Source: Flavobacteriales bacterium (GTDB taxonomy: Bacteria > Bacteroidota > Bacteroidia > Flavobacteriales > Flavobacteriaceae). From it: a DNA stretch of 56,358 nt. How positions within the stretch are numbered: position 1 is the first letter of the stretch; each line of letters opens with the position of its first letter. Shown in pieces: positions 9,261 through 50,584 of this stretch. Location: contig JAMOVT010000104.1 in assembly GCA_027061855.1 (NCBI GenBank), positions 1 to 56,358 of the forward strand, written 5' to 3'. The notes beneath the pieces were generated by a model, which searched no databases, was not told the origin of the DNA, and saw only the letters and a program-made list of their open reading frames with translations. A program made the translations under genes and the position numbers.

Positions 9261-9272
9261 AATATAAATTTT

Positions 9273-12200
9273 TTAAAAAGTTGCTTTAACACTTAATCCA
9301 TATCTCCTAGACTTAGGAGCATTTAGATATTCAAAACCGGAACCATTACCAACACCTAATCCGTTAACTTCGGGGTCAAAGTTAGTATCTTTGGGTATAC
9401 CTGGTGCATAGAACCAAAGATTGTTTCCTGTTATAGAGATTGATAAAGCTCCAAAAGGCAATGATTTTAAAACCTTTTTGGAGAAATTGTATGTCAGACT
9501 TAACTCTTGAAGTCTTACTACGGTAGCATCATATACTCTCATTTCATCCGGCCCATATAAAATGGTATTGAAGAAATAAGAAGAGTTATTGATTTGTTTG
9601 GTATTAGGTTCACCAGTTGTGGTAACTCCTGGGAGGATAAAGGAATTTTTTCTATCAACACCTTCAAGATTTACAACACCACGACCAAGTAATGTCGCTA
9701 CAGTTGTAGAATAAACATCTCCACCTTGTGACCAATGTACCAATACACCTAGGCTTAAGTTTTTGTATTTGAATTCATTATTAAAGTTCATAATAAAATC
9801 CGGAGTAGCATTTCCTATAATTCCTATATCCGGAGCAGTTCTATATTTACCATCTTCACCCACTATAAAGTTTCCATCGGCATCTCTATCGATTTTACTT
9901 CCAATCATAGATCCTAAAGGTTCACCTTCCATAGCCACATTTCCTAGATCGGAAAATCCGGCATACACAATTTTATCTGTGTCTTGCCCTAAATCAACAA
10001 CTACTGCTTCACTGGAAGAGAAGTTTATTCCGGAATTCCATTTAAATGAAGAAGTATTGAAAAGATCATAGTTTAAATCAACTTCGTATCCGGTATTATT
10101 AATTTCTCCAATGTTTGTAAGGGTACTAGTATAACCTGTAGAAGGATCCAATGGTCTTGAAATAATCAAATCAGTTGTTTTTCTAGAATAATAAGAAAAA
10201 TCCAATTTTAATTTATTCTTAATTAATTTTGATTCAAAACCAACTTCAAATTCATTTAGCAACTCAGGTTTAAGATCGGGGTTAGGTAATGTATTACCGA
10301 CAGTATTAGTAATAACATAATCTTGACCGTCTTTGAATCCGTGTGTATTTATAAGAACATTATCGGAAACAGGATATCCACTAGGGAAATTAGCAGAAGA
10401 CCCATAACCTACACGAAGTTTAAGGTAGTTAACAAGATCACTTTCTTTTAATGCTCCAATAGCGCTTGTGGGTATGAATGAGAGACTAGCAGACGGATAG
10501 AATAAGGATCTGTTTGCTTTGTCTAGGTTAGATACCCAATCATTTCTACCAGCCAAAGTTGCATATAGATAATCTTTATATCCAAATTGAGCTTGAGCAT
10601 AAACTCCCAATGTATTTCTTTTTGATTTATACTCTATAGCATTATGATTGATGAAATTGGAATGATTAAGCACATTAAAAGCAACTTGTTTGGAACTGGC
10701 CACTCCTTGACGATTATATCTGTTAGTACGTAGGGTTGAACCGATTGTATAATCTAATTTAAAATCATCGCTGATTTTTGTATTACCAAGTAACATGAGA
10801 GTATAATCCATGATTCGGTTATTATTATTCCATGTTTCGTAAATTCCGGATTGAGTTACCTCTGAACCTGTTTTTCCACCTTTATTTGCGGAGTTTAGAT
10901 TCGATTCGTTATAAATGTCCAATCCCATTCGATAATTAATCTTTAAATTATCGGTTAGGTCATAACCAAAGGTAATTCCTCCGTATACACGGTTTGTATT
11001 TTGGGCATTTTTTGTATTATGAACTGTCCATAAAGGATGTTGAATATCATTGCTTCCTCTATAATATACAGATTCACCAGTAACAGGATCTTGATAAGGG
11101 AGGTTCATTAAATCAATACTTCTAGGTGTATAAAATAAATTACCAAATACAGAGGGTAAGCTTCCACCTACATTACTTCCATAACTTGCAGCAATAGGAG
11201 GGGTTTCATAGTTGGTTATAACATAATTTAAGGTACCTTGGATTTTAAAATTATTCGTTAAGTCAGCTTTACCTCCAATACTAAAATTAGTTCTATCCAA
11301 ATTATTTCCGGGAGTAAAACCGGAATCATCCAATCTACTTACTCCCAAATTATATGCATATTTTCCATCATCAGATAGACCTTTTGCATTCAATGAGATA
11401 TTTTGTACAGTACCCATTCTGAAAAAATCAGCTACGTTATTTTCATAAGCTTTATAAGGGTATCTAACACCGGCATATTCAGGAAAATGCCCCGATTCTC
11501 CAATTACACCAATTGAATAGGGGTGTGGAACAGTTCCATCACTATCAATATAAGGGTCTCTGCCCCAACCATCAATTCCTTCCTTACGGAAAGCCGGCCC
11601 CCAGTTACTGTAAAACCAACCGAATGCTTGATTAAATCCTCCTCCATACTCATTTTGATAATTAGGTAGAGTTGCAATTTCGTTTCTGAAATAAGACGAA
11701 GTTATACTAATTTCGTTTTTCTTCTTTCCTTTACTAAACTTACCGGTTTTTGTCGTAATTAAAACCACACCGTTTCTTCCCTCAGCACCATATAAAGTAG
11801 TAGCTGCCAAACCTTTTAAAATACTGATATTAGCAATATTATTAGGGTCTAAATCCAAAAAACGGCTGGACCCGTTATTACCATCAACAAAGTCACCAAA
11901 AGCATTTGTATCACTGGCAAACGGTATTCCGTCAATTACGAATAATGGTCTGTTTGAACCGGAGAAAGAATTCATTCCTCGAATAAGAATATTGGTACCC
12001 GAACCGGATAAACCATTTTGTTGTACAATTTGTACACCGGAGGTTTTTCCATCGAGAATCCGAGCAATATCGCCTTCTGCTTTTTGTTCCAATTTTTCCG
12101 ATTTTACATTGGATACAGCGTAACCAAGTGCCTTTTTCTCTTTTTTAATACCTTGTGCCGTCACAACTATTTCTTCTAATTGGTCACCTTCTTTCAAGGT

Positions 12201-37940: not shown

Positions 37941-39527
37941 ATGAGTTTAGAACAAGAAATAGCAAAAAGGAGAACTTTCGGGATTATTTCCCACCCCGAT
38001 GCCGGGAAAACCACATTGACAGAAAAATTATTGCTTTTTGGGGGCGCCATTCAAGAAGCCGGAGCGGTAAAATCCAATAAAATTAAAAAAGCAGCCACCT
38101 CCGATTTTATGGAGATAGAGAAACAAAGAGGAATATCGGTGGCTACTTCGGTATTGGCATTTTATTATAAAAACAAAAAAATAAATATCCTCGACACCCC
38201 CGGGCATAAGGATTTTGCTGAGGATACTTATAGAACACTTACGGCGGTCGATAGTGTAATTGTGGTGATTGACGTGGCAAAAGGAGTCGAGGAACAGACG
38301 GAGAAACTGGTACAGGTTTGCCGCATGCGAAATATTCCCATTATCGTGTTTATCAATAAGCTGGACCGTGAAGGGAAAGATGCTTTTGAGTTATTGGATG
38401 AGATTGAACAAAAATTGGGCTTGAAAGTTACTCCGTTGAGCTTTCCCATCGGAATGGGAAGTGATTTTACGGGAGTATATAATATTTGGGAAGAAAAATT
38501 GAAACTCTATTTTGGAGAAAATAAGCAAAAAATAGCAGATTTCGAAGAAATTACCGATGTAAATGATCCTCGTTTGGTCGAATTAATCGGAGAGGAAAAG
38601 GTGGAAGAATTAAAGGAAAACCTCGAATTGGTAGAAGGGGTATATCCTCCTTTTGATCATGATGCTTACCTCAAAGGAGAGTTGCAACCCGTATTTTTCG
38701 GTTCGGCTTTAAATAATTTTGGAGTCCAGGAATTGCTGGATTGTTTTGTAGAGATTGCCCCTCCGCCACAACCCAAAGAAGCCGAAGAGCGTATAGTTTA
38801 TCCCGATGAGCCCAAAATGACCGGATTTGTTTTTAAAATCCATGCCAATTTGGATCCCAAGCATAGGGACCGGATAGCTTTTGTGAAAATTGTATCGGGG
38901 ACTTTTAAAAGAAATCAGCCTTATTTTCATACGCGCTTGAAAAAGAATTTCAAGTTTAGCAGCCCCAATACGTTTTTTGCCCAGAAAAAGCAGGTGGTGG
39001 ACGAGTCTTACCCGGGAGATATAGTAGGTTTGCACGACACGGGAAACTTTAAAATAGGTGATACCTTTACAGAAGGAGAGATGTTGCATTTCAAAGGAAT
39101 CCCCAATTTCTCCCCGGAACATTTTCGCTATATCAACAATGCCGATCCTATGAAATCCAAGCAATTGGCCAAAGGAATCGACCAATTGATGGATGAAGGA
39201 GTAGCCCAATTGTTTATCTTGGACAGCAATGGACGTAAAGTGATAGGAACCGTAGGAGCGCTGCAATATGACGTAATTCAATACCGCTTGGAACACGAAT
39301 ACGGAGCTAAATGTACCTATGAACCTTTGAATGTTTACAAAGCTTTTTGGGTAGCCCCCGAAGATCCCAACAACGAAGAATACAAAGATTTTAAACGCGT
39401 AAAACAAAGATATCTGGCCAAGGACAAATACGGAAAACAGGTATTTCTTGCCGATTCTCCTTTTTCTTATGAAATGACCAAAACCAAATATCCGACTGTT
39501 AAATTGTATGAAAAATCGGAGTTTTAA
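37941..39527 (+). CDS. prfC: Peptide chain release factor 3
   Basis: The 528-residue GTPase removes RF1 or RF2 from the ribosome after termination. G1 is SHPDAGKT (17-24), the switch region contains [12 protein letters not shown]3 is DTPGHKDF and G4 is NKLD. The C-terminal part with [20 protein letters not shown] is specific for RF3 and separates it from EF-G. No other gene shares its transcript. Confidence 0.97.
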
Positions 39528-39664
39528 AAAATGAACGTTTTTTAATCATAGTAGTTTTTATAATTAATTTAAAATGATTGATTTAGAGAGATGCTTGAAA
39601 TTTAAGTTTTTCTTCTTAAAATCAAGCCGGAATATTTATTTAACCTCTTTTAAAATTTTATATT

Positions 39665-40051
39665 ATGATTGAAAAACTCATCAAAAATTTGGAATCATTA
39701 AATTATAATTTCAAAATAATCGACGAAGATACCGTCAAGGTTTATCTTACCAATGCACTGGTTGTTACGGTTAAAAATGTAAAGAACAATTGGATTATCG
39801 AGGAAAAATTTGAAAGCCTTAATTTCATTACGACTTTTTTAAAAATCGGTTTTAGCGATGCCCTTATTGTAAATGTAGTTTTCAGTATCTTGGCTATAAT
39901 TATCGGAACCACTATCGGGGCTTATCTTCATATCACTTATTTTGTGATGATTGTAATTCTTTTGGCGTGGGTGATTTATTTTTATTATTATATCAAATTC
40001 CTTGCATTTAAAGTATTTTTAAATAATATGATAATAGGTTTTGAGAAGTAG
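39665..40051 (+). CDS. Hypothetical membrane protein
   Basis: The 128-residue protein has a polar N-terminal half (about 1-62) and two close hydrophobic helices (about 66-88 and 90-112). I do not recognise the family. It stands alone between prfC and the GLPGLI-family gene, with no clear promoter. The preceding 137 bases hold nothing else that I can support. Confidence 0.6.
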   Translation: MIEKLIKNLESLNYNFKIIDEDTVKVYLTNALVVTVKNVKNNWIIEEKFESLNFITTFLKIGFSDALIVNVVFSILAIIIGTTIGAYLHITYFVMIVILLAWVIYFYYYIKFLAFKVFLNNMIIGFEK

Positions 40052-40192
40052 GAAAAAAGAAGTCCGGCTGTTAGGGTAATTTATATTTTTCATAACCAAT
40101 GATAGAAGGATTCAAAGCCTAAAAATTATATATAAGAAAAGCAAATTTTTTAAAAAAACCTAATTGAAAGGGCGTAAAACTAAAAAATTAGT

Positions 40193-40200
40193 TATATTTG
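40193..40200 (+). promoter_or_regulatory. -7 box of the first GLPGLI gene
   Basis: TAtaTTTG is a full consensus match and ends 21 bases before the ATG at 40222. It overlaps the upstream TTG of the open frame and so decides against that start. No -33 TTTG at 19 bases. Confidence 0.5.
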
Positions 40201-40221
40201 TTTATTGCCATGTGGTTTTTT

Positions 40222-40965
40222 ATGTCAAAATTTTTGTCTTTTATAATTATAAGCTCTTTCATTTCTCTTGGATTGAATGCCCAACAAAATGCAATTGTTT
40301 ACTATGATTATTCCTTCCATCCGGAAAAATTATCCATTAACAAAGAATTAAAAAATGCTCCGAAAACCGAAATGAATTTTTTTATGAAGCTTGCGGAAGA
40401 ATATGCCAAGCAACATAAATATATTTTAAAATTTACTCCGAAAGAAGCACTTTATAAAGTGGAAGCGGGAATTAAACCGGATGAACTTTTGGATCCGTCC
40501 GCTTGGCGTATCTCGCAGTGGACTTTTGGAAAAGGTGTTTTTTATCAAAATGCCCCTCAACGTTATATATTGAATCAAAAGACAAGTATGAATCAATTGT
40601 ATTTGGTCAGAGATACCATAAAAAGCGATTGGACGATTAGTTACGAAAAAAGAATAATTGGCGGATTGAAATGTTATAAAGCGACCAAAAAGGCAAAAAC
40701 CAAGAAAGGCTTTGATATAGAAGCTTGGTTTACACCTGAGATTCCTGTTCCTTTTGGTCCCGGAAGGTTTGCCGGCACACCGGGCTTGATTGTGGAATTA
40801 AATTATGGTCCGCATACATTGAGCTTAAAAAAATTGACATATAAAAAACATCTGAAAATTAAAAAACCCATAGAAGGTAAGCCGATAAGTGCCGTGGAAT
40901 TAAAAGATCTGTTTTTTAAAAAGAAATGGGAGTTATACCAAAAGATGCAAAGTAGAAACAGGTGA
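40222..40965 (+). CDS. GLPGLI-family protein
   Basis: The 247-residue protein has a signal peptide (about 1-20, cut after LNA) and the family core FTPEIPVPFGPGRFAGTPGLIVEL, here with GTPGLI instead of GLPGLI. GLPGLI proteins are exported Bacteroidota proteins of unknown function that often neighbour TonB-type receptors. Two more members lie at 42140 and 42894. The ATG at 40222 is chosen because the earlier in-frame TTG lies inside the -7 box. Confidence 0.85.
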   Translation: MSKFLSFIIISSFISLGLNAQQNAIVYYDYSFHPEKLSINKELKNAPKTEMNFFMKLAEEYAKQHKYILKFTPKEALYKVEAGIKPDELLDPSAWRISQWTFGKGVFYQNAPQRYILNQKTSMNQLYLVRDTIKSDWTISYEKRIIGGLKCYKATKKAKTKKGFDIEAWFTPEIPVPFGPGRFAGTPGLIVELNYGPHTLSLKKLTYKKHLKIKKPIEGKPISAVELKDLFFKKKWELYQKMQSRNR

Positions 40966-41339
40966 AATAAATAAAAAAGAATAGAAATTATAAAAAAAAA
41001 TCATTGAAGGATAATGATTAAAAATAAGAGAAAGAATGCGGGCGAAAAGAAGGTAGAGGAATTTTTAGACGGTCTTTTTCTTTAATTGATTGTAAACCGA
41101 TATAAAATAGTATTTTTGGATTGTTGAGTGAGCAAAAAATAATGATTTTATACAAAATAAATTATAAAATTGTTTTTTATAAGTGGTAATAAAAATTCAC
41201 TTTTCTTAAAATCTTAAAAATAATTAAATTATATGAGGGGGGGGGATTTTGATAGCGTAACAAAAACTGCCTAATTTTTAAAATATCAATAAAAATACAA
41301 AAATACCATATTGAATGCAATTTTACATTAAAAATTTTA

Positions 41340-41347
41340 TATATTTG
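41340..41347 (+). promoter_or_regulatory. -7 box inside a dyad, leader copy 1
   Basis: TAtaTTTG lies inside the dyad TTATATA-N7-TATATAA (41337-41357), which is fully conserved in copy 2. A -33 TTTG is missing, which fits a promoter that needs an activator or another sigma factor. The leader to the ATG at 41593 would be about 240 bases. Confidence 0.5.
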
Positions 41348-41353
41348 ACATAT

Positions 41354-41592
41354 ATAAATCAGTAAATTGTGAAATTATGACTTAGCTATAATGTAAAAAC
41401 AAAGAGGGAATGCCGCCGTGATCTCGGGAAAGCTCTTGGCGGCAAACCCATAGACGCCAAATTTGCATTTGACAAGACAAAGATACGTTTTTTATTGTTT
41501 AAAATGCAAGTTTGGAAGCTCTCCACTTCCTTGTCAAGCGGAAGGAAAAGGTGCTTGATAAAAATTATTTTAAACAATAAAAATTTACGATT
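41354..41592 (+). ncRNA. Structured 5' leader, copy 1
   Basis: Visible pairings are a 7-bp GC hairpin TGCCGCC/GGCGGCA (41411-41417 with 41438-41444), a 17-bp closing stem (41489-41505 with 41567-41583), and inside it GGAAG/CTTCC (41514-41518 with 41526-41530) and TCAAGC/GCTTGA (41534-41539 with 41553-41558). CTTCC can instead pair with a second GGAAG at 41540-41544, so two forms are possible. The closing stem ends 9 bases before the ATG. I know no RNA family that fits. Confidence 0.5.
41478..41485 (-). promoter_or_regulatory. Opposing -7 box inside leader copy 1
   Basis: The minus strand reads TAtcTTTG, a perfect -7 box, also kept in copy 2 (47084-47091). A CTTG lies 21 bases upstream. A transcript would run left across the GC hairpin and reach a U-rich stretch near 41395, about 80 bases in all. 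Confidence 0.35.
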
Positions 41593-41799
41593 ATGAAAAA
41601 ATTAGTTTTAATTATTGCAATTATGTTTTCAAATATTGGTTTAATAAGTGCAGTAACAAGTGCACAAGACAATCAGGAAGATAGTTATAAATGTAGGTTA
41701 AAGGCTTTTCAAGAGGCTCAGGAAAGTGGTTATGAATATGCCTCAAAAGAATGGCAATGGATCTATTATTCTGAAAAGAAAATGTGTGAAATGGAATAA
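41593..41799 (+). CDS. Small secreted two-cysteine protein
   Basis: The 68-residue protein has a signal peptide (about 1-20, LISA) and a short mature part with C34 and C65, which can form one disulfide. SYKCRL, ESGY, WQWIY and EKKMCE are shared without gaps with the next gene. The function is unknown. It is the first gene behind leader copy 1 and is followed by a weak hairpin terminator. Confidence 0.8.
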   Translation: MKKLVLIIAIMFSNIGLISAVTSAQDNQEDSYKCRLKAFQEAQESGYEYASKEWQWIYYSEKKMCEME

Positions 41800-41816
41800 A
41801 TCCAAATTCTATATGT

Positions 41817-41833
41817 AGAGGAAGTCTTCCTCT
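41817..41833 (+). terminator. Weak terminator after the first miniprotein
   Basis: AGAGGAA pairs with TTCCTCT (7 bp) around a 3-base loop, followed by CCUUUUU. It probably lets part of the transcripts through to the next gene. Confidence 0.5.
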
Positions 41834-41861
41834 TCCTTTTTAATTATTTAAAATTTATATT

Positions 41862-42068
41862 ATGAGAAAAATAATTTTAATTTTCACATTTGTCTTTTCA
41901 AATGTAAACTTAATAAGTGCGGAAACAAATATACTATTTAATCAGCAGGAAAGTTATAAATGTAGATTACAAGCTTACCTTTTAGCAGAGGATAGTGGTT
42001 ATCCATTTGGTTCTTATACTTGGCAATGGATCTATAAGATGGAAAAGAAAATGTGTGAAAGGGAATAA
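41862..42068 (+). CDS. Small secreted two-cysteine protein, paralogue
   Basis: The 68-residue protein is a tandem paralogue of the gene at 41593, with a signal peptide (about 1-20), C34 and C65 in the same places and the shared SYKCRL, SGY, WQWIY and EKKMCE motifs. The mature parts differ at many other positions, so it is an old duplication. A strong terminator follows. Confidence 0.8.
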   Translation: MRKIILIFTFVFSNVNLISAETNILFNQQESYKCRLQAYLLAEDSGYPFGSYTWQWIYKMEKKMCERE

Positions 42069-42080
42069 ATTCAAATTTTA

Positions 42081-42108
42081 TGTAGAGAGGAAGAAAAAAA
42101 CCTCTCTA
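42081..42108 (+). terminator. Terminator after the second miniprotein
   Basis: GTAGAGAGG pairs perfectly with CCTCTCTAC (9 bp) around a 10-base A-rich loop and is followed by UUUUU. It looks like a diverged copy of the hairpin after the first miniprotein. Confidence 0.8.
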
Positions 42109-42139
42109 CTTTTTCTAATCTTATTAACATATTTATACT

Positions 42140-42877
42140 ATGATAAAAAAGAAATTTATAACATTATTTTTATTATTTATTTTTTCTATTATTCGATCCC
42201 AAACAAATGGTACTATAATATATAAGGTGAGAAAAGTACCAGATGATCAGGTAAAAAACATTTATACCAAAAATAATATCGATTATGAAGAAACCATGCA
42301 AAAATTTAATAAATATTATGCAATAGCTAGTCAATTTAATTTTATTTTAAAATTCAATAATGAAGAAAGTCTATATTTTTGGGAAGAAGAAATGTTGACG
42401 GAGGACTTACCAGAATATTATTTGATAAGAGCTAAATTATTAGGAGGTGGTATGGATAAATATTATCAAAATAAAATAAGTAATGTAAAAATAACCCAAG
42501 GAATGTCTCCTTTTTCCCGAGAAATGGAAAGAGAAAAAAGTAGTTTATATAATAATCCGAAATGGAAAATAACTGAGGAAAGAGATATTATACTTGGTTA
42601 TCCTGTGATTAAAGCTATTTATAAAAATGTTGAAGTATGGTTTACCCCCGATATTACTTTACCCTTTGGTCCGGCTGGTTATGGTGGATTACCAGGATTA
42701 ATTTTAAAGAAGAAATTTATAAAGCAATTTCCAGCAACAGAAATTGTTGCAGATAAAATTATATTTACAAAAGATAAAATTAAAATAAAAAAACCCAAAA
42801 AAGGAATATTAAGAACAAAAGAAGCAGCAGATAGTATTAGAAGAAAAAGATTGGCGAAAGAAATGTTAATGCATTAA
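42140..42877 (+). CDS. GLPGLI-family protein
   Basis: The 245-residue protein has a signal peptide (about 1-19, cut near IRSQ) and the core FTPDITLPFGPAGYGGLPGLILKK. Upstream it shows the family TERDIILGYPVIKA-like segment (here TEERDIILGYPVIKA). It is the first of a four-gene run (GLPGLI, GLPGLI, barrel, small membrane protein) with very short gaps. Function unknown. The gene is much richer in A+T than the barrel gene that follows. Confidence 0.9.
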   Translation: MIKKKFITLFLLFIFSIIRSQTNGTIIYKVRKVPDDQVKNIYTKNNIDYEETMQKFNKYYAIASQFNFILKFNNEESLYFWEEEMLTEDLPEYYLIRAKLLGGGMDKYYQNKISNVKITQGMSPFSREMEREKSSLYNNPKWKITEERDIILGYPVIKAIYKNVEVWFTPDITLPFGPAGYGGLPGLILKKKFIKQFPATEIVADKIIFTKDKIKIKKPKKGILRTKEAADSIRRKRLAKEMLMH

Positions 42878-42893
42878 ATCCATAATAACTTTA

Positions 42894-43616
42894 ATGAAAA
42901 AATTTATATTATTATTTCTATTATTAAATATTTATTTTTTACAAGGGCAACAAAATGGAAAAGTGATTTACAAAATTGCTTTTGACGAAAAGGCTTTTGA
43001 TAAAGAACTGGAAAATGTTGAAGATCCCGTTTTAAGAAATATGATTTATAATAATAAAGCCAAAAAACTCAAACGATATGAGTGGGCCAAAGAGATTCCG
43101 TTTATTTTAAAGTTTAATCCCAATGAAAGTATTTACTATATGGAAGATATCTTAGTTCCTGATAATTTATCAAACAGAGATTTATTGAGGATTAAAGTAA
43201 ACGGAAGAGTATTAAACAAAATATATGTGAACAAAAAAGATTCTATAATAATGTTTCAATATACAGCTTTGGAATTGGGAAAATTGGTAAGAGAAACCAA
43301 ACATTTTAAAGATGTTAAATGGAAAATCACTCCCGAGAGAGATACTATTTTGGGCTATCCTGTTATTAAGGCGACAAAAGGAAGGGCTATGGCCTGGTTT
43401 ACTCCCGATATTCCCGTTCCCTTTGGGCCCGGTGATGATGTGGGTTTACCCGGATTAATATTAAAGTACCAATATAATTCAAATAGCATTGTGGCAGAGA
43501 AGATTATTTTTAGTAAAAAACCAATCAAAATAAAGATTCCTACAAAAGGTCTGTTGAGAACAAAAAAAGAGGGAGAAGAGGCTCGTATAAAAGCCTTTCA
43601 TAAATTAGAAAGATAG
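42894..43616 (+). CDS. GLPGLI-family protein
   Basis: The 240-residue protein has a signal peptide (about 1-18) and the core FTPDIPVPFGPGDDVGLPGLILKY, with PERDTILGYPVIKA before it. It is a paralogue of the upstream gene (16-base gap). Its stop codon lies 5 bases before the barrel gene, so these two are translated together. Confidence 0.9.
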   Translation: MKKFILLFLLLNIYFLQGQQNGKVIYKIAFDEKAFDKELENVEDPVLRNMIYNNKAKKLKRYEWAKEIPFILKFNPNESIYYMEDILVPDNLSNRDLLRIKVNGRVLNKIYVNKKDSIIMFQYTALELGKLVRETKHFKDVKWKITPERDTILGYPVIKATKGRAMAWFTPDIPVPFGPGDDVGLPGLILKYQYNSNSIVAEKIIFSKKPIKIKIPTKGLLRTKKEGEEARIKAFHKLER

Positions 43617-43621
43617 GATTG

Positions 43622-46276
43622 ATGAAATTTATATTAAGTTTGCTTTTCGTTTTTTCTTTTTTTATTTCTTTTTCACAAGAGCGGGAAATCAAAGGGCAAG
43701 TAAGGGATAGTTTAAAACAACCTGTGGTTTTTGCAAATCTCATGGCAGAAACGATAAATGCGCCTGATATCCCGCCGGTTTTTGCTATGAGCGGTGAAGA
43801 CGGGAGCTATAAAATCCGCTTGTTAAAAAAAATTTCCTATCAAATTACCGTGCTTTCCATGGGTTATGAAAAATATGTTTTCAGGGTGGATAGTTTATCG
43901 GGAGATTTGGAAAAAAATATCGTGTTGAAAGAGGCAAAAAATCAATTGGACGAAGTGGTAATCACCGCTGATATGCCCGTTAAAGTGACCCAAGACAGTA
44001 TAGTTTATAAAACAGACCGGTTTAAAACCGGAGAAGAACGCAAACTGAAAGACGTACTCAAAAAATTGCCCGGAGTGGAAGTGAGCAAAACGGGACAAGT
44101 TACCGTTATGGGCAAGAAGGTGAGCAAAGTGCTGGTGGAAGGCAAAGAGTTTTTTGGAGGAGGAACCAAACTGGCGGTCGAGAATATTCCCGCCGATGCA
44201 GTGGATAAAGTTACGGCGGTGGACGACTATCACAGCATAAGTTTTATGCAAGGCTTGACAGACGAGCAAAAAATGATCATCAATATCAAGCTCAAAGAAG
44301 GAAAGAAACGGTTTGTTTTCGGCGATATTTATGCGGGGGCGGGCGACGACGAGAAATATTCGGGCAAAGCCAATTTGTTCTATTACAGTCCCAAAACCAA
44401 TTTGAGCTATATAGGAAATATAAACAATACCGGCGAAGCCTCAATGGATATTTCGGATTTTATGCGTTTTGAAGGAAGCAGCATGAGTTTGGATAAAATG
44501 CGTTCCTCTTTTCGCAATTTCAATTCCATTAGCAGCTTGATTTTTCAAGATCAATTCATCAGTAAGGAAATCCATTTTCAGGCCGCCCAATGGCAACAAG
44601 ATGTGGGGCCTAAGCATGAGTTTTCCACCTATATGATTTACGATAAAGACCGGCAAACCGCCGGCGAAGATATACACAATGAATACCTGGAAACCGGAAT
44701 CGAAGAAATACGCAATACTTCGCAGCAACAAGATTTTGAAACGGCTATCGGGAAAGTACATTGGAGGTATAAAAAAGAGATATTTGACTATTTGGATTTA
44801 AACCTTTCGGGAAATTGGCAAAATCAAAAAAACCTTTCCGGGATTGCCAATCAATATGAATCCGTTGATCGCTTTATAAATAAAACCGGACGCAAAGAAA
44901 ATTTTTATATCGACGGAATTTTTACTTGGCACAAAAGGTTTAACAAAAAAAATACCTTGCGAGTGATCAATGAATGGAAGCATTCCAAAGAAACTCCGGA
45001 AGACAATTGGACCACAAACGACGGCAACTTGAATCCTTTATTGCCCTTGGAAACGCAAGCGGTATATGAGATTAACCAAAACCGGGAAATACAAAAAAAT
45101 CAATGGTATGCCGAGTTGAAACATTATTGGATCATCGATAATAAGCAACATATTTATACTACTTTGGGAAATGATTTAATGGATGGTAAATTGGATTCCT
45201 ATGTGTATCAAATTTTGGAAAACGGGCAATCCGTATCCTTTGAATCAGCGGGTTTTACAGACGATATGCATTTAAAAATCAATGATTTGTTTGGCGGCTT
45301 GCAGTACAAGAGAAAAATGGGAAAATTTGTTTTAAAGACCGGCCTTTTTGCACATTCCTATCGCTGGAATTTCAAAAATTTGCCGGTGCGGACAAAATTT
45401 AATTTACTGCCTGAATTCCGGTTGGAGAGAAAATACAGTTTGGCCAAAAAGATTGTTTTCAATTACCAATTAAAAAGCAGCATCTACGGCCTGCAAAAAT
45501 ATTCCGGTGCTTTTTATCTGCGGGAATTTTCTTCTGTTTACAGGGGAAATCCGGCTTTGGAAAACGAACTTTTTCATCAATTATCTTTATCAATCAACAA
45601 TTACAGCTTTATCAAAAAGCATCAATATTACCTGCGTTTTCAATATCGGCGCAAACTCAATCCCATTAAAGACAAAGTGGTTTATACGGATATTTACAGT
45701 TATTACCAAGCGGCACAACTTTCTATGGCGGAGGATTTTTTCAGCAGCCGGTTGTTTTATAAATTGGATTTAAGGCGTTTTTATGTCAAACTCACTCCGG
45801 CTTTTTCATACGGCCGTTATATGCAAAACATACAGGAAAATTGGAAGGAGATCAAAAATTTTACGCAAAATTATAAATTGAGTTTCGGCACCTATTTCAA
45901 AAAATGGCCCAATATGGATTTTGGAGTGGATTATAATCACTCTGCTACCGATTACGGAAATTTATATATCACAAATAAAAAAATCAGTCCGTTTTTTGAA
46001 TTGGAATATGATTTTTTAAAGCATTTTGTATTTAGCGGAAGCTATGAATATCAAATAAATTATGATACAAATAACCGGAAAAAAGATTTTCAAAAAGCCC
46101 GGTTCACTCTTTCTTATCAAAAGGAAAACAATCCTTGGGGTTTTGAATTGAAGGCCAAAAATATATTCAATACTTCCTATATCCAAGACATTATATACGG
46201 GCCTTATATGATCACAACTCAAAATATTTACCGTCAACCTTCTGTTTGGTTGTTAGTAATTCATTATAAACTTTAA
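43622..46276 (+). CDS. TonB-receptor-like outer membrane beta-barrel protein
   Basis: The 884-residue protein has a signal peptide (about 1-18, cut near SFS), a carboxypeptidase-regulatory-like domain (about 20-105), a plug-like part with DEVVITADMPV and KDVLKKLPGVEVSKTGQVTV, and a long barrel. It belongs to the outer membrane proteins that usually accompany GLPGLI genes. The frame opens with a TTG at 43619, but the ATG at 43622 starts the signal peptide. The gene is clearly richer in G+C than its neighbours. Confidence 0.9.
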   Translation: MKFILSLLFVFSFFISFSQEREIKGQVRDSLKQPVVFANLMAETINAPDIPPVFAMSGEDGSYKIRLLKKISYQITVLSMGYEKYVFRVDSLSGDLEKNIVLKEAKNQLDEVVITADMPVKVTQDSIVYKTDRFKTGEERKLKDVLKKLPGVEVSKTGQVTVMGKKVSKVLVEGKEFFGGGTKLAVENIPADAVDKVTAVDDYHSISFMQGLTDEQKMIINIKLKEGKKRFVFGDIYAGAGDDEKYSGKANLFYYSPKTNLSYIGNINNTGEASMDISDFMRFEGSSMSLDKMRSSFRNFNSISSLIFQDQFISKEIHFQAAQWQQDVGPKHEFSTYMIYDKDRQTAGEDIHNEYLETGIEEIRNTSQQQDFETAIGKVHWRYKKEIFDYLDLNLSGNWQNQKNLSGIANQYESVDRFINKTGRKENFYIDGIFTWHKRFNKKNTLRVINEWKHSKETPEDNWTTNDGNLNPLLPLETQAVYEINQNREIQKNQWYAELKHYWIIDNKQHIYTTLGNDLMDGKLDSYVYQILENGQSVSFESAGFTDDMHLKINDLFGGLQYKRKMGKFVLKTGLFAHSYRWNFKNLPVRTKFNLLPEFRLERKYSLAKKIVFNYQLKSSIYGLQKYSGAFYLREFSSVYRGNPALENELFHQLSLSINNYSFIKKHQYYLRFQYRRKLNPIKDKVVYTDIYSYYQAAQLSMAEDFFSSRLFYKLDLRRFYVKLTPAFSYGRYMQNIQENWKEIKNFTQNYKLSFGTYFKKWPNMDFGVDYNHSATDYGNLYITNKKISPFFELEYDFLKHFVFSGSYEYQINYDTNNRKKDFQKARFTLSYQKENNPWGFELKAKNIFNTSYIQDIIYGPYMITTQNIYRQPSVWLLVIHYKL

Positions 46277-46278
46277 AT

Positions 46279-46623
46279 TTGTATGTTAGGAAAAAGAAAA
46301 TAGCCCTTTTGCTTTTTTTAATCGCCACATTATTTTTAATGGGAGGTTTATTAAAAAAATCCTTTACTCCACAATCCATTTATTTTCTATCATTGATATT
46401 ATTTTTCTTGGGATTTTTTTTATATCCGAAAAAAACTCTTTCCGGCAAGTTCAATTTTTTAATTCTCCCTTTTTTGGTAATGATAATTTTTAATCTCATC
46501 AATCTTTTTTCTATAAAAACTTATAAAGGAGATATTTCCTTAATCAATATTTTATTGGGTATGTATGGGTTTATTTCTTATTATTTAAATGAGAAAAGAA
46601 TGAAGTTTATAAATCGAAAATAA
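46279..46623 (+). CDS. Small hypothetical membrane protein
   Basis: The 114-residue protein has about four hydrophobic helices with basic ends. The only start that keeps the whole frame is TTG at 46279, directly after the barrel stop codon; the nearby ATG at 46283 is out of frame and stops after six codons. Translational coupling with the barrel gene is plausible. No family was recognised. Confidence 0.55.
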   Translation: MYVRKKKIALLLFLIATLFLMGGLLKKSFTPQSIYFLSLILFFLGFFLYPKKTLSGKFNFLILPFLVMIIFNLINLFSIKTYKGDISLINILLGMYGFISYYLNEKRMKFINRK

Positions 46624-46947
46624 ATGCCCCCCTTTATAATTTATAAGAAAACAGTTTTGATGCTGAGGAACTGAAAAATGATAAATCTATTTCAAAACAC
46701 TATATAATAAAAAAGCACTATCCTTTGATTATATAATGACCAAAAAATCATGTTTGTGTCCAAAATAAATTGAAAGAATGCTTTTTGGAAATGAGAATAA
46801 AAATTCACTTTTCTTAAAATCTTGAAAATATTTAAATTAACATAAGGGGGGGGATTTTAATAATGTAGCAAAAATAGCCTAATTTTTGAAACATTAATAA
46901 AATTGCAAAAATACAATAATAAATGCGGTTTTATATTAAAAATTTTA

Positions 46948-46955
46948 TATATTTG
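46948..46955 (+). promoter_or_regulatory. -7 box inside a dyad, leader copy 2
   Basis: TAtaTTTG within the dyad at 46945-46965, as in copy 1. No -33 TTTG at 19 bases. Confidence 0.5.
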
Positions 46956-46961
46956 ACATAT

Positions 46962-47199
46962 ATAAATCAATAAATCGTGAAATTATGAGTTAGCTATAAT
47001 GTAAAAACAAAGAGGGAATGCCGCCGGACCCGGGAAAGCTCTTGGCGGCAAACCCATAGACGCCAAATTTGCATTCGACAAGACAAAGATACGTTTTTTT
47101 ATTGTTTAAAATGCAAGTTTGGAAGCTCTCCACTTCTTTTTCAAGCGGAAGGAAAAGGTACTTGATAAAAATTATTTTAAACAATAAAAATTTACGATT
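46962..47199 (+). ncRNA. Structured 5' leader, copy 2
   Basis: The same pairings as in copy 1 are possible: GC hairpin 47019-47025 with 47044-47050, and the 17-bp closing stem 47096-47112 with 47174-47190, which ends 9 bases before the ATG. The TCAAG/CTTGA inner stem is kept with its top pair lost, and GGAAG now meets CTTCT (a G-U pair). Confidence 0.5.
47084..47091 (-). promoter_or_regulatory. Opposing -7 box inside leader copy 2
   Basis: The minus strand reads TAtcTTTG, as in copy 1. Its conservation in both copies is the main argument for a minus-strand transcript. Confidence 0.35.
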
Positions 47200-47721
47200 A
47201 TGAAAAAAGCAATAATATACCTTAGTTTGATTATAGCGATTATTACTATTTCATGTAATAAATCAGATGAAAGAACAAATTTAATTAATGATAATTATGA
47301 ACATTTCTTAATAACAAATTACGAAATTACTATTGATAAAGACAGTGGTTTAATGATGGTTGATATTGATAATAATAAAAAATATAAAGGTGAGTATAAA
47401 TTATTTAATATTAAAGTTGATGAAAATGGAAAATTAACATGTCCAAAAGATATGTCATTTTACTTCATACCCTTCGACGATAATACAATTGCTATCCGAT
47501 TAATGGATCCTGTATATAAATGTGACTGCATAGATAGTCCAGACCCTTTAAATAATTGCGATTATTTTGTAGATGGTAATAAATTAAGATGTGGGGGGTC
47601 CGACTGCTGTGAAGGATATATAGAAGATGATGATATTAAAAAGGGTTTCAATAATAAATATACTGACGGTATACTTTTAGCTTGTAAAACTCTTATATTA
47701 AATGGGAAAAAAATAGATTAG
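47200..47721 (+). CDS. Cys-rich lipoprotein of unknown function
   Basis: The 173-residue protein has a lipoprotein signal (Cys19 in ITISCNKSD). The C-terminal half has a Cys cluster: C81, C108, C110, C120, C131, C136 and C137 (KCDC, NNC, RCGGSDCC), which suggests disulfides or metal binding outside the cytoplasm. It is the first gene behind leader copy 2 and is followed by a thioredoxin-domain lipoprotein, a fitting partner for a Cys-rich protein. No family was recognised. Confidence 0.75.
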   Translation: MKKAIIYLSLIIAIITISCNKSDERTNLINDNYEHFLITNYEITIDKDSGLMMVDIDNNKKYKGEYKLFNIKVDENGKLTCPKDMSFYFIPFDDNTIAIRLMDPVYKCDCIDSPDPLNNCDYFVDGNKLRCGGSDCCEGYIEDDDIKKGFNNKYTDGILLACKTLILNGKKID

Positions 47722-47735
47722 TAATTTTTATTTAA

Positions 47736-47767
47736 TATCCAAGCCAAAATCACTTTTGGCTTGGATA
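47736..47767 (+). other. Perfect 14-bp hairpin between two lipoprotein genes
   Basis: TATCCAAGCCAAAA pairs with TTTTGGCTTGGATA around the loop TCAC. No U run follows, so it is not a normal terminator. It ends 11 bases before the ATG at 47779 and may act on RNA processing or on translation of the next gene. Confidence 0.6.
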
Positions 47768-47778
47768 AATTTATATAT

Positions 47779-48783
47779 ATGTATAAAAAATTAATAATAG
47801 CATTACTTATTTTTATATCCTGTAAAACAGAATATAAGACATTAACAAATCCTGAAAGTTTTAATACAGCCTACAATTTAGAATACAAAAGAAAAAGTCT
47901 ATTAAAAAGTGATACTGCCAAATACAATTATAAATTAATAATAAATAATAATTGCAATTATTATATTGAAAGTGCAAATCATTTTATCTTTTACATTAAT
48001 GATTCCCTTTATACTTTTTATAAAAATCACAATAAATATATCGTTCAAAAACGCAATAAATACTTTTCATTTGTAAGGCCAATTTGCAGACCTTATAAAG
48101 AAATGTTTAGAGATTCTACAATTATAACTGTAAAAAATGATACAATTAGAGTTGAAAAAATTAATAAGAAAAAAAACAGTTTTAAATATGCCTATTTTAT
48201 CAATGATAATAGAATTGTCAGTCTTGAAAAAACAATAAATTATTTAGGATATGATCAGTATGAAAAATTAAATTTTACTAATTTTAAAAAAGTGAGTTTC
48301 AATATAGAAAATGAATTAAATATAAAATTAAAAAATTACAAAAAATATTCTATTTCAAAAAATATTGGACAAGTAAAAAAACCTTTCTTTTTTACTGGAA
48401 GATACTTAAATGGAGATAATTTTAATTCACAGAAAGATACGACAAACAATGTAATATACTTTTTTTGGCATAAGAAATGTTTTCCATGCATTTTATCTTT
48501 ACCAAAAATGAATAATTTATATAATACCTATAAAGGCAATATAAAAATTATTGGAGTAAATATGTTTGATAAAATACAAATAATAGATGAAATGATAAAA
48601 CAAAAAAAAATTATATTTCCTAATGTTATTGCTGATAGCATTTTTATAAAAGAAAGGATTAAAGCTTTTCCTTATTACGTATTAATTCACAACAAAAAGA
48701 TTTTGTATGAATCATCAGGCTATTCTAATGAGCAATTTAATAAGCTGGATAGTATTATTCAAAAACTAATTATTGAAAAATAA
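47779..48783 (+). CDS. Lipoprotein with a C-terminal thioredoxin domain
   Basis: The 334-residue protein has a lipoprotein signal (Cys15 in LLIFISCKTE), a beta-rich middle part of unknown fold (about 20-190) and a thioredoxin-like domain (about 195-334) with the redox motif C234-F-P-C237 and a later FPYYVLI, whose Pro is the expected cis-proline. It would reduce or exchange disulfides outside the cytoplasm. The frame is open to a TTG at 47761, inside the hairpin, so the ATG at 47779 is chosen. Very A+T-rich. Confidence 0.82.
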   Translation: MYKKLIIALLIFISCKTEYKTLTNPESFNTAYNLEYKRKSLLKSDTAKYNYKLIINNNCNYYIESANHFIFYINDSLYTFYKNHNKYIVQKRNKYFSFVRPICRPYKEMFRDSTIITVKNDTIRVEKINKKKNSFKYAYFINDNRIVSLEKTINYLGYDQYEKLNFTNFKKVSFNIENELNIKLKNYKKYSISKNIGQVKKPFFFTGRYLNGDNFNSQKDTTNNVIYFFWHKKCFPCILSLPKMNNLYNTYKGNIKIIGVNMFDKIQIIDEMIKQKKIIFPNVIADSIFIKERIKAFPYYVLIHNKKILYESSGYSNEQFNKLDSIIQKLIIEK

Positions 48784-48801
48784 TTCTAATATATTTCCTA
48801 A

Positions 48802-48960
48802 AAACAAGGGAATTATTACTTTTTAATTTTGAATATAAAGTGCCAACTGAGATATAAAAAGTTAAATTTGGAAGATAAACTATTAGACTTATCTGATAAA
48901 ATTCCAAGAAGTTTAACAGTTAAATCAATTGATTTGGGTGTTAGATTTATTTTTCAATAA
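48802..48960 (+). pseudogene. Remnant of the C-terminus of an outer membrane barrel
   Basis: A frame of 52 codons without an ATG lies between two stop codons. It ends KSIDLGVRFIFQ, an alternating strand as at the end of outer membrane barrels, and has another such strand, YYFLILNIKCQLRY, near its beginning. No start codon or promoter is visible and it is cut off after about 50 residues, so it is probably what is left of a larger gene. A chance frame cannot be ruled out. Confidence 0.45.
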
Positions 48961-49016
48961 AAATTCCTTTAATTTCAAGAGTTTTAAAAATTAAATAAAA
49001 TATACCCAAATGTTTT

Positions 49017-49047
49017 TTTGCAAAATAAAAAAATAGTTATAAATTTG
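49017..49047 (+). promoter_or_regulatory. Promoter of the trp operon
   Basis: TTTG (49017-49020), exactly 19 bases, TAaaTTTG (49040-49047): a perfect Bacteroidota promoter. Transcription should begin near 49053, about 15 bases before the leader peptide ATG. Confidence 0.85.
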
Positions 49048-49067
49048 GTGCTTATAAAATTCAAACG

Positions 49068-49121
49068 ATGACTTTATTCAATGCTTGGTGGTGGTTTAAA
49101 ACTAATTCGATAACCGGATGA
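49068..49121 (+). CDS. trpL: trp operon leader peptide
   Basis: The frame encodes MTLFNAWWWFKTNSITG, 17 residues with three consecutive Trp codons (49086-49094). When charged tRNA-Trp is scarce the ribosome should stop on these codons. The last two codons and the stop codon overlap the left arm of the antiterminator (49113-49119), so a ribosome that reaches the stop codon covers that arm. It lies between a perfect promoter and an intrinsic terminator, directly before trpE. Confidence 0.9.
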   Translation: MTLFNAWWWFKTNSITG

Positions 49122-49167
49122 GATAGCCGCTGCTTTGCAAAAAAGATATGAGCTTACCCAATCCGGT
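49113..49167 (+). promoter_or_regulatory. Antiterminator of the trp attenuator
   Basis: ACCGGAT (49113-49119) pairs perfectly with ATCCGGT (49161-49167). This pairing takes the loop and the first bases of the right arm of the terminator at 49151-49178, so the two structures exclude each other. A ribosome stalled on the Trp codons would end near 49106-49109 and leave the left arm free. Confidence 0.82.
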
Positions 49168-49178
49168 AAGCTTTTTTT
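49151..49178 (+). terminator. trp attenuator terminator
   Basis: AGCTTACC pairs with GGTAAGCT (8 bp) around CAATCC, followed by a run of six or seven U. It lies 20 bases before the trpE ATG and would stop transcription when tryptophan is plentiful. Confidence 0.9.
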
Positions 49179-49198
49179 GTGTGATAAAAAATGAAAAT

Positions 49199-50584
49199 AT
49201 GAAATATACTTTAAAATATCATTCTTTACCTGCCGACACTTTAACTCCCGTGAGTGTATATTTGCGCATCAGGGATCAATTTCCGGAAAGTCTTTTGCTG
49301 GAAAGTTCCGACTATAACAGCAACAAAAACAGCTTTACTTTTATAGTGGGCGGATTGATGGAAAACTTTAAAATAGAGGAAGACAAATTATATGTAAATA
49401 ATGAATTGAAAGGGGAAGCACGAAATTTTGACATTCCTCTTGAACTCAAAAGATTCATAGCCGGAATTGACGTTCAACAAGAAGGAGATCCTTTTCAATT
49501 TAACGGAATTTACGGTTTTACGGGTTTTGAAGCGGTAAAATATTTTGACACGCTCCCTTTCGAGAATAAAAGGCGAGAGGAACAAATCCCTTTGATGAAT
49601 TACGGTTTTTACCGTTTTATTGTCGCCATCAATCATTTTAACGACGATGTGCTCATTCTGGAAAATATTCCCGAAGGAGAAGAAGTCCAACTCGATGATT
49701 TTGTCAATACGGTTTATGCGCAAAAACTTCCTGCATTTCATTTTAAAGCCATGGACGACGAGCAGTCTCCCATTACCGGTGAAGATTTCATGCAATTGGT
49801 GGAAAAAGGAAAAGAATACTGCCGGTTGGGAGAGGTGTTTCAAATCGTTTTTGCCCGAAGGTTTTCCCTTTCGTTCAAAGGCGACGAATTCAATGTTTAC
49901 AGAGCTTTGCGTTCGGTCAATCCTTCGCCCTATTTGTTTTATTTTGATTATGGCAATTATAAACTTTTCGGCTCTTCCCCCGAAAGCCAATTGGTGATCT
50001 CGGAAGGCAAGGCCGTATTGAATCCCATTGCGGGAACTTATAAAAAAACAGGAGATTTTAAACTGGACAAAATCCTGGGAGAAGAATTGAGCCGGGATCC
50101 CAAAGAAAATGCCGAGCATACCATGCTGGTGGATTTGGCCCGGAACGATTTGGGAAAATTTTGCTCGGATGTGGAAGTAACCAAATACAAAGAAATACAG
50201 CATTTCAGTCATGTAATTCATATTGTATCCGAGGTAAAAGGAAAGGTGGATAATAAAGAGACTTCCATCGATATTTTCGGGGCTACTTTTCCTGCGGGAA
50301 CATTGAGCGGCGCTCCCAAATACAGAGCCTTGGAATTGATTCATCAAAACGAGAAACATGAACGCGGCTTTTATGGTGGAACCGTTGGAATTATCAGTCT
50401 CACCGGCGATATCAATACGGCCATTACCATACGTTCCATCCTTAGTCAAAACGGAAAATTACATTACCAAGCCGGAGCAGGCGTGGTAGTGGATTCGGTG
50501 CCCGAAAAAGAGCTTAAAGAAGTGGATAATAAACTCGGAGCTTTGCGAAAAGCCATTAAACTAGCGGAAAAATTTAATAAATAG
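49199..50584 (+). CDS. trpE: Anthranilate synthase component I
   Basis: The 461-residue enzyme makes anthranilate from chorismate and ammonia. LLLES (32-36) is the conserved site of tryptophan feedback inhibition. The catalytic part has FQIVFARRFS, SPYLFYFDYGNYKLFGSSPE, AGTYKKTGD, DLARNDLGKFC and FPAGTLSGAPKYRALELI. The frame is open to 49148, but that stretch is the attenuator; the ATG at 49199 is the proper start. It is the first structural gene of the operon. Confidence 0.97.
   Translation: MKYTLKYHSLPADTLTPVSVYLRIRDQFPESLLLESSDYNSNKNSFTFIVGGLMENFKIEEDKLYVNNELKGEARNFDIPLELKRFIAGIDVQQEGDPFQFNGIYGFTGFEAVKYFDTLPFENKRREEQIPLMNYGFYRFIVAINHFNDDVLILENIPEGEEVQLDDFVNTVYAQKLPAFHFKAMDDEQSPITGEDFMQLVEKGKEYCRLGEVFQIVFARRFSLSFKGDEFNVYRALRSVNPSPYLFYFDYGNYKLFGSSPESQLVISEGKAVLNPIAGTYKKTGDFKLDKILGEELSRDPKENAEHTMLVDLARNDLGKFCSDVEVTKYKEIQHFSHVIHIVSEVKGKVDNKETSIDIFGATFPAGTLSGAPKYRALELIHQNEKHERGFYGGTVGIISLTGDINTAITIRSILSQNGKLHYQAGAGVVVDSVPEKELKEVDNKLGALRKAIKLAEKFNK

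Follow-up and report, generated by a model that had tools for sequence, protein, structure and literature searches.

Why should two closely similar stretches of noncoding DNA stand directly in front of two unrelated genes? The question is raised by a contig of a Flavobacteriales bacterium (JAMOVT010000104.1, assembly GCA_027061855.1), which was analysed over 56,358 nucleotides (nt), hereafter called the window. An earlier examination of the letters of this DNA (the sequence-only reading) had described the two stretches as direct repeats of about 410 bases that end at the first codons of open reading frames (ORFs), and as a portable 5ʹ leader RNA or RNA-RNA switch of secreted-protein genes. That general reading is supported by the placement of the further copies reported here and by compensatory base changes among them. 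As judged from their sequences, the repeats are copies of a real, portable regulatory leader that is confined, in the sampled genomes, to two genera of uncultured flavobacteria. We consider it rather probable that this leader is a translational switch thrown by its own antisense RNA.

A repeated leader before unrelated genes

Positions 41133-41601 and 46741-47208 share 89% identity over 469 bases (E = 5.6e-176 by sequence comparison), and their similarity begins at about 41104 and 46712 (family D1). Over the greater part of the 260 bases that lead up to the start codon, identity between the two copies is 0.93-1.00 per 40 columns. It then falls to background past the ATG, as it does in two other copy pairs (three pairs examined). 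The direct repeats are thus real and stop at the ATG. The ORFs behind them encode a protein of 68 amino acids (aa) with two cysteines (Cys) in one case and of 173 aa with nine Cys in the other, and the lack of relationship claimed for these products is borne out by BLASTP (E 0.97). Only four distinct runs of at least eight G occur in the 2.04-Mb assembly. Two lie in the window copies, one lies in a third copy, and the fourth lies in an apparent rpoB coding region, judged by its rplJ-rplL neighbours rather than by a hidden Markov model (HMM) run. Because three of the four long G runs fall in copies of the element, the repeat pair is beyond chance.

From 5ʹ to 3ʹ, the leader carries a -7 promoter box, a short upstream ORF (uORF), a hairpin, arm a, an opposing -7 box, a T run, arm b, one or two small hairpins, arm c and the start codon, with about 250 nt from the -7 box to the start codon. 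The hairpin has a stem of about 10 base pairs (bp) and a loop of about 20 nt that usually contains GGAAA, and arm a is palindromic in itself. All parts named by the sequence-only reading (poly-G tract, -7 box, hairpin, opposing -7 box, 17-bp inverted repeat and ATG) were recovered where it had placed them. It had also noted that loop length varies on a constant stem, and the loops of copies 1 and 2 measure 21 and 19 nt as cut in our loop analysis. The two-codon uORF, arm a and three more own-genome copies on two other contigs had been overlooked. The parts in the window, with the basis of each assignment, are as follows.

41133-41592, + strand: leader element copy 1, ending at the ATG (sequence comparison)
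41237-41245, + strand: poly-G tract of 9 G, copy 1 (direct reading)
41340-41347, + strand: sense -7 box TATATTTG, copy 1 (TAnnTTTG consensus; PMC7366714, PMC9723704)
41377-41385, + strand: two-codon uORF ATG ACT TAG, copy 1 (uORF scan)
41392-41472, - strand: predicted antisense small RNA, copy 1, ends estimated (5ʹ hairpin, linker, terminator-like hairpin, U-rich tail)
41406-41449, - strand: GC hairpin with hypervariable loop, copy 1, terminator-like in the antisense RNA (covariation, wobble test)
41457-41470, + strand: arm a, copy 1, mRNA partner of arm b, lying under the predicted antisense RNA (covariation)
41478-41485, - strand: opposing -7 box TATCTTTG, copy 1 (alignment of copies)
41489-41515, + strand: T run and arm b, copy 1 (41502-41515 pairs with arm a, 41489-41505 with arm c)
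41567-41583, + strand: arm c, copy 1, 9 nt before the ATG (17-bp inverted repeat with 41489-41505)
41593-41799, + strand: exported-looking 68-aa two-Cys miniprotein, ATG at 41593 (ORF list, hydropathy rule)
46741-47199, + strand: leader element copy 2, ending at the ATG (sequence comparison)
46846-46853, + strand: poly-G tract of 8 G, copy 2 (direct reading)
46948-46955, + strand: sense -7 box TATATTTG, copy 2 (alignment of copies)
46985-46993, + strand: two-codon uORF ATG AGT TAG, copy 2 (uORF scan)
47000-47078, - strand: predicted antisense small RNA, copy 2, ends estimated (same layout as copy 1)
47014-47055, - strand: GC hairpin, copy 2, stem identical to copy 1 and loop different (covariation, loop analysis)
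47084-47091, - strand: opposing -7 box TATCTTTG, copy 2 (alignment of copies)
47096-47112, + strand: T run and the part of arm b that pairs with arm c, copy 2 (inverted repeat)
47174-47190, + strand: arm c, copy 2, 9 nt before the ATG (17-bp inverted repeat with 47096-47112)
47200-47721, + strand: exported-looking 173-aa lipoprotein-like protein with 9 Cys, ATG at 47200 (ORF list, hydropathy rule)

A DNA search of the same genome gave two diverged matches on another contig, C34 (copies E3 and E4), which prove on alignment to be the same element and which both end at the ATG of further unrelated exported-looking proteins. A first covariance model (R1), built for the antisense strand from four own copies, yielded 10 copies, which added to these a fifth from the own genome, another from a congener and four from a second genus. 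A sense-strand covariance model built from 10 copies (R2) was the source of the final set, for which a strong copy is one with an E value of at most 3.2e-5. There are 28 strong copies: five in the own genome (G000), one in G001 of the same genus, and 22 in the second genus of the same family, spread over nine of its 13 genomes. No other strong R2 match was found in samples of 397 family, 395 order and 395 phylum genomes, which overlap and in which about nine candidates per genome were scored in full, so that weak relatives may escape. In the family sample, 19 of the 397 genomes match R2 at E ≤ 0.05, four of them strongly (G000, G001, G153 and G342).

Every one of the 28 strong copies lies upstream of an ORF start in the sense orientation, and the distance from the opposing box to the start codon is 108-159 nt in 27 of them (245 nt in one that carries extra DNA). 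The first ORF is intact in 24 of 28 cases, short or broken in three, and has ATA in place of ATG in one. By a simple hydropathy rule, 25 of the 28 first products look exported, versus 14 of the 39 window ORFs of at least 150 aa. Further copies before genes of mostly exported-looking products, as had been anticipated from the window alone, are what these genomes contain.

A mobile element, MITE-like (miniature inverted-repeat transposable element) or an insertion sequence, that landed before genes by chance would also be present in many copies. Several copies do sit at contig ends, as repeats do, and ORFs that read as transposase-like lie further downstream of two leader copies (L125:4155-4589 and L132:1968-2387). 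We nevertheless regard this explanation as very improbable, because all 28 copies have the same orientation to the ORF, the start distance is narrow in 27, identity ends at the ATG in the three pairs examined, and one pair includes the tail of the upstream gene. By reading, no transposase-like ORF is among those listed around the window copies, and searches of plasmid records (two queries) and phage records (one query) gave no match to the element. The window copies thus show no sign of belonging to a known insertion element; such membership had been named by the sequence-only reading as fatal to its proposal.

The pair that includes an upstream gene is E3 and E4 (L030:4679-5300 and 9196-9816, - strand). 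The 3ʹ coding end of the methyltransferase-like gene located before E4 is also present at E3, so that E3 is probably a product of segmental duplication and not of transposition.

Rival helices and a predicted antisense RNA

Compensating base changes, which the sequence-only reading had proposed as a check, exceed the shuffled expectation in two alignments. In the 28-copy alignment (A6), which leans to its own model, 88.0% of 641 cells are paired and 74 are compensatory, versus 19.7 ± 5.5 in shuffles, which overstate significance because the copies are related and come from two genera only, and 9-19 in slid controls. In a MAFFT alignment of 10 copies that was built without structure, 87.7% of cells are paired and 28 are compensatory, versus 10.0 ± 2.7. 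On these comparisons the predicted RNA anatomy of the leader family is well supported.

The 17-bp inverted repeat recognized earlier is present, but it forms only one half of a pair of mutually exclusive helices, in which arm b can join either arm a (a:b) or arm c (b:c). Pairing scores are higher for own arms than for arms swapped between copies, both for a:b (33.3 vs 24.5) and for b:c (33.1 vs 26.5), with none of 2000 permutations reaching the observed value in either case. By this sequence measure, a:b and b:c are copy-specific rivals. Partition-function folding of the free leader gives means of 11.9 expected pairs for a:b and 6.2 for b:c. When the stretch that the antisense RNA would cover is blocked, the mean for b:c rises from 6.2 to 17.2 pairs, with an increase in 25 of 28 copies.

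Wobble pairs assign the helices to strands. Read on the sense strand, the GC hairpin has 277 Watson-Crick, no G:U and 46 A:C cells, and the a:b helix has 262 Watson-Crick, 25 G:U and 6 A:C cells. An A:C mismatch on the sense strand is a G:U pair on the antisense strand. The occurrence of A:C without G:U in the hairpin therefore indicates that the hairpin is kept on the antisense RNA, and the excess of G:U in a:b indicates that this helix is kept on the mRNA. The same numbers bear on the idea that the a/b or b/c inverted repeats flank an invertible promoter flipped by a recombinase. A promoter box does lie between inverted repeats in nearly all copies. However, the arms of the window copies stand only about 30 and 60 bp apart, the a/b mismatches are mostly G:U on the sense RNA (25 vs 6), which is irrelevant to DNA recombination, and no flipped copy was noticed among the 28 inspected, so that this arrangement seems exceedingly improbable.

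The predicted antisense RNA has the same layout in nearly all copies, with a promoter box, a 5ʹ hairpin, a linker, a terminator-like hairpin and a U run. In 21 of the 22 copies of the second genus, at least five T directly follow the stem. The folds predicted for four antisense RNAs reach z-scores of -1.9 to -4.6, and the sense strand of two of the same stretches scores -1.8 and -2.5. The sense -7 box, TAnnTTTG, is exact in 22 of the 25 copies whose contig extends that far, and the opposing box, CAAAnnTA, is exact in 25 of 28, with its two n positions varying. TAnnTTTG is reported as the primary sigma factor consensus in Bacteroides and Flavobacterium (PMC7366714, PMC9723704).

These features also suit a multi-copy family of trans-acting small RNAs made from the minus strand, for which the sense leader would merely be the location of the gene. 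Such a family would explain why the GC hairpin is kept on the antisense strand and why a compact gene of promoter box, hairpin, linker and terminator-like hairpin is present in nearly all copies. It is an improbable account, in that the small RNA does not include the uORF, arm b, arm c or the fixed spacing to the start codon (108-159 nt in 27 of 28), and in that a:b shows the wobble pairs of the sense strand.

The hairpin loop is hypervariable, most of all in its 5ʹ half. There, column entropy averages 1.58 bits versus 0.5-0.8 in the stem, the arms and the opposing box, and the GGAAA core of the loop has 0.74 bits. Ten copy pairs are at least 90% identical outside the loop; their mean identity is 94% outside and 71% inside, and it is lower inside in nine of them. 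One pair from the same genome is 100% identical outside the loop and 70% identical inside. Such variation is what loop-determined specificity would resemble, and in IncK plasmids nucleotides of the RNAI loop are reported to affect compatibility (PMC10724649). Because the loops of paralogues diverge, the antisense RNA to which a leader responds would in many cases be chiefly its own.

Homopolymer tracts add a further variable feature near the sense promoter. The poly-G tract had been taken as a constant part of the element, and it is present in four of the five own copies, but most other copies carry a T tract instead. A run of at least seven T or at least seven G lies within 45 nt before the -7 box in 15 of 20 usable copies and in 3 of 40 control windows. 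Usable copies are those of the 28 with a clear -7 box and clean upstream sequence, and the controls are other noncoding TAnnTTTG sites from the same loci. In the two C34 copies, tracts of G7 and G8 lie between TTTG and the -7 box, so that the spacers measure 19 and 20 nt. The G tract of the window copies lies outside the promoter spacer, about 100 nt upstream of the -7 box. Tracts within the promoters of some copies could add slow phase variation of transcription.

The upstream reading frame and the proposed switch

A two-codon uORF (ATG-NNN-stop) is present in 20 of the 28 leaders, versus 2.43 expected from dinucleotide shuffles of the same leaders. If frames of up to four codons are counted, 25 of 28 leaders have one (8.17 expected), comprising the 20 two-codon frames, one ATG-stop and four with four codons. 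Because the copies are related, this excess is not a probability. The uORF starts 24-34 nt past the sense -7 box. Its middle codons include ACT, AGT, ATT, ACA, ATA, CTT, CGT, AGA and AAA, and its stops are TAG, TAA and TGA. Since both middle and stop codons vary, what is conserved is a start followed almost at once by a stop, and not a sequence. A dyad operator (CTAT-N3-ATAG) in place of the uORF is disfavoured: the dyad is broken in many copies, and the ATG with its in-frame stop is kept.

The uORF might itself drive the leader as a translational attenuator, with ribosome stalling, or its absence, setting the a:b or b:c fold and with the antisense RNA in a secondary role. The strong excess of very short frames speaks for such a device. 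Translational attenuation is reported for tetQ in Bacteroides (PMC5418344), and uORF stalling that opens the ribosome-binding site is reported for toiL/topAI (PMC12121999). Yet the uORF stop in the window ends 20 nt upstream of the hairpin (41385 vs 41406 and 46993 vs 47014), and arms a to c are further off, so that a stalled ribosome would have no direct effect on a:b or b:c. The varying middle codon does not suggest codon-specific stalling, and an attenuator leaves the conserved opposing promoter box, the antisense-strand wobble and the hypervariable loop unexplained. We therefore rate uORF-driven attenuation as unlikely, although not negligible.

In the antisense-thrown switch that we favour, the leader would be transcribed from the upstream TAnnTTTG promoter, and a ribosome would first meet the uORF, usually AUG-NNN-stop. 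In the free mRNA, arm a would pair with arm b, which would leave arm c open before the start codon and allow the exported protein to be made (ON). A small RNA of about 80 nt would begin at the opposing TAnnTTTG box and be ended by the GC hairpin and U run. This RNA would contact the mRNA through the complementary hairpin loops and then cover the hairpin and arm a, upon which the freed arm b would pair with arm c and close the start region (OFF). The uORF probably tunes the switch, either by protecting the mRNA or by sensing its translation state, and this is the least certain step.

A number of observations weigh against this switch or against parts of it. We infer both promoters from their boxes, and by eye the antisense promoter has a weak -33 box or none; transcription and the direction of control, including the predicted closure of the start region by the antisense RNA, are likewise inferences from the leader sequences. 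Part of the rise in b:c on blocking is due to removal of the competitor, b:c is already preferred in the free leader in 8 of 28 copies, and in three there is no rise. Besides the relatedness of the copies and the lean of their alignment, one of the five covariation measures, further pair types, is not above shuffles (410/500 and 342/500), and the 46 A:C cells are clustered in few columns (16 in 10:56 and 14 in 16:50). Three of the 28 copies lack a uORF, and some leaders have extra ATGs; the first one in G421C55 begins a frame of 27 codons. Although extreme, the 5ʹ half of the loop is not the sole variable part, since the linker (1.24 bits) and the 3ʹ half of the loop (1.23 bits) vary too. Strict one-to-one addressing by loops is opposed by G153, in which most of one loop is common to three leaders and the whole of another to two, by the closest pair in G429, which differs little in the loop (95%), and by a few loops that recur across genomes with different genes behind them.

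A bolder proposal is that the leaders form a chromosomal addressing system in which the hypervariable antisense loop is the address of each leader. We offer this tentatively and think it doubtful. If true, loops that diverge after duplication would make leaders independent, and leaders that share a loop would form cross-silencing groups. Plasmid-style incompatibility would then have been re-used for surface and secreted proteins. Combined with tract changes in some promoters, such a system would let a cell choose, and choose again, which members of an exported and partly bacteriocin-like repertoire are displayed.

RNA control in Bacteroidota is little explored, and only two Bacteroides small RNAs are said to have been known before a 2020 paper (PMC7366714). 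The present family is supported by covariation, and both partners, the mRNA leader and the antisense RNA, are predicted in sufficient detail for helices to be individually broken and restored. It offers a natural case for examining the role of two-codon uORFs, the avoidance of cross-talk among paralogous antisense systems, and the transfer of segments between unrelated genes. As candidates for joint control, it points to sets of unknown exported proteins, among them one that matches a model for fulvocin C-related bacteriocins.

Related systems, neighbouring genes and weaker matches

A search of Rfam covariance models over window positions 39500-49500 at E ≤ 1 gave no match within the element, its sole match lying outside (49294-49347, E 0.54). 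Among six loci scanned at E ≤ 0.5, a set that did not include L030, the only match was to a microRNA family (L124:6295-6400), outside the copies. The view that the leader fits no known family thus holds for the copies scanned. In the literature, searched by title or start of abstract, no description of the leader family was found; its individual parts are already known from other systems.

Among the closest parallels are DonS-type cis-antisense RNAs of Bacteroides polysaccharide loci, which are reported to be 78-128 nt long (about 80 nt predicted here), to be antisense to the leader of an exported-protein operon, and to have a TAnnTTTG-type promoter box (PMC7366714). The target here differs in being the leader of exported miniproteins and lipoproteins, and not susC. 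No SusC-like first gene was seen among the 13 of 28 first products scanned with Pfam, and a CarboxypepD_reg outer-membrane-like protein occurs only further downstream. The leader also differs in having its antisense promoter box inside it, in its uORF, rival helices and hypervariable loops, and in giving no Rfam match.

Plasmid replication-control systems of the RNAI/CopA type have a short leader reading frame, a likeness to the uORF here, and rival mRNA folding at the start region. They also set an antisense stem-loop against a leader hairpin, with specificity determined by loop nucleotides, as reported for I-complex and R1 plasmids (PMC10724649); the predicted antisense RNA and the hypervariable loop here would be the counterparts. 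Here, by contrast, no rep-like gene was seen behind the copies by reading, the two plasmid queries gave no match, and many paralogues per genome are joined to unrelated genes.

Leader-peptide attenuators (tetQ, ermC, toiL/topAI) share a short uORF and mutually exclusive helices at the start region. The uORF here is unlike theirs in being mostly two codons long and away from the helices, an antisense RNA is predicted, and the downstream genes are not known resistance or toxin-antitoxin genes. A two-codon ORF that acts in cis on the next gene is reported for axe-txe (PMC8708949). That report concerns one operon, whereas such a frame is kept here in 20 of 28 leaders with changing middle and stop codons.

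Intact first products of the 28 copies range from 68 to about 590 aa. No shared family was found among the 13 scanned with Pfam or the 14 scanned with NCBIfam, and most have no family at all. They include several miniproteins (mostly with two to six Cys), lipoproteins, one fulvocin C-related match, and one protein with a type IX secretion tail and weak metallopeptidase matches. The fulvocin C-related match is a 211-aa lipoprotein behind copy E3 on C34 (L030:4044-4679, - strand), which scores 89 bits against model NF033852 (bacteriocin fulvocin C-related protein; cut-off 35) and is followed by DUF1573 and thioredoxin-fold genes. Behind another copy lies a 288-aa lipoprotein-like protein with 13 Cys and no Pfam or NCBIfam family (L069:4688-5554, + strand). 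For 12 of 28 copies, the next genes read as one or more GLPGLI proteins and an outer-membrane-like protein of roughly 710-885 aa as called. These downstream identities are by reading, with HMM tests on own-genome proteins and one G153 protein.

The 15 weak R2 matches in the family sample have E values of 4.9e-4 to 0.046, and six were inspected by eye. Five were rejected for want of the element's anatomy. The sixth, G405:C199 (L097; E 4.9e-4, 40.7 bits), shows a hairpin like that of the element, with GGAAA in its loop, and a CAAAGATAC box, but neither a uORF nor an exported ORF, and is a possible distant relative. The order sample gave two weak matches, in G228 (also among the 15) and G614. Three weak matches in G001 and G002 look like chance, G425C81 was rejected by eye as a copy, and G000 holds one further weak match (E 0.98). 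When 60 relatives were searched by nucleotide comparison with the whole element, only short matches of 27 to 73 bases were found outside the own genome. A pattern scan of genome contigs found five stretches, four of them in genomes of the family (one in G153, two in G429 and one in G421), and the fifth, in Paludibacteraceae, is a chance match. The single viral match to one pattern sits in a coding frame and is also chance, and a second pattern had no viral match.

A tenth genome of the second genus, G423, has a weak match (G423C6, E 0.042), left out of the count, that resembles a copy split by an insert. Extra stretches that share ATTTGGTAT are present in the leaders of G421C158 and G424C52. 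These stretches and the G423C6 insert are possibly small mobile repeats (L124, copies a and b; L127; L137). Behind the two near-identical leaders on G429 contigs C34 and C102 (L130 and L132) lies a short ORF, its C tracts being of 6 and 8, and after it another exported-looking ORF.

The remaining genes around the window copies are as follows.

41862-42068, + strand: second 68-aa miniprotein, tandem duplicate of the first (73% over 257 nt)
42140-42877, + strand: GLPGLI family protein, TIGR01200 (HMM match)
42894-43616, + strand: GLPGLI-like protein (by reading only)
43622-46276, + strand: 884-aa protein with a CarboxypepD_reg-like domain, outer-membrane-protein-like by reading (Pfam and reading)
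47779-48783, + strand: 334-aa thioredoxin-fold protein (AhpC-TSA), lipoprotein-like by reading (HMM match and reading)

A tandem duplication in 41568-42093 (257 nt, 73%) comprises the first miniprotein gene with its start region, and copy 1 is thus a single leader that precedes two 68-aa two-Cys miniproteins.

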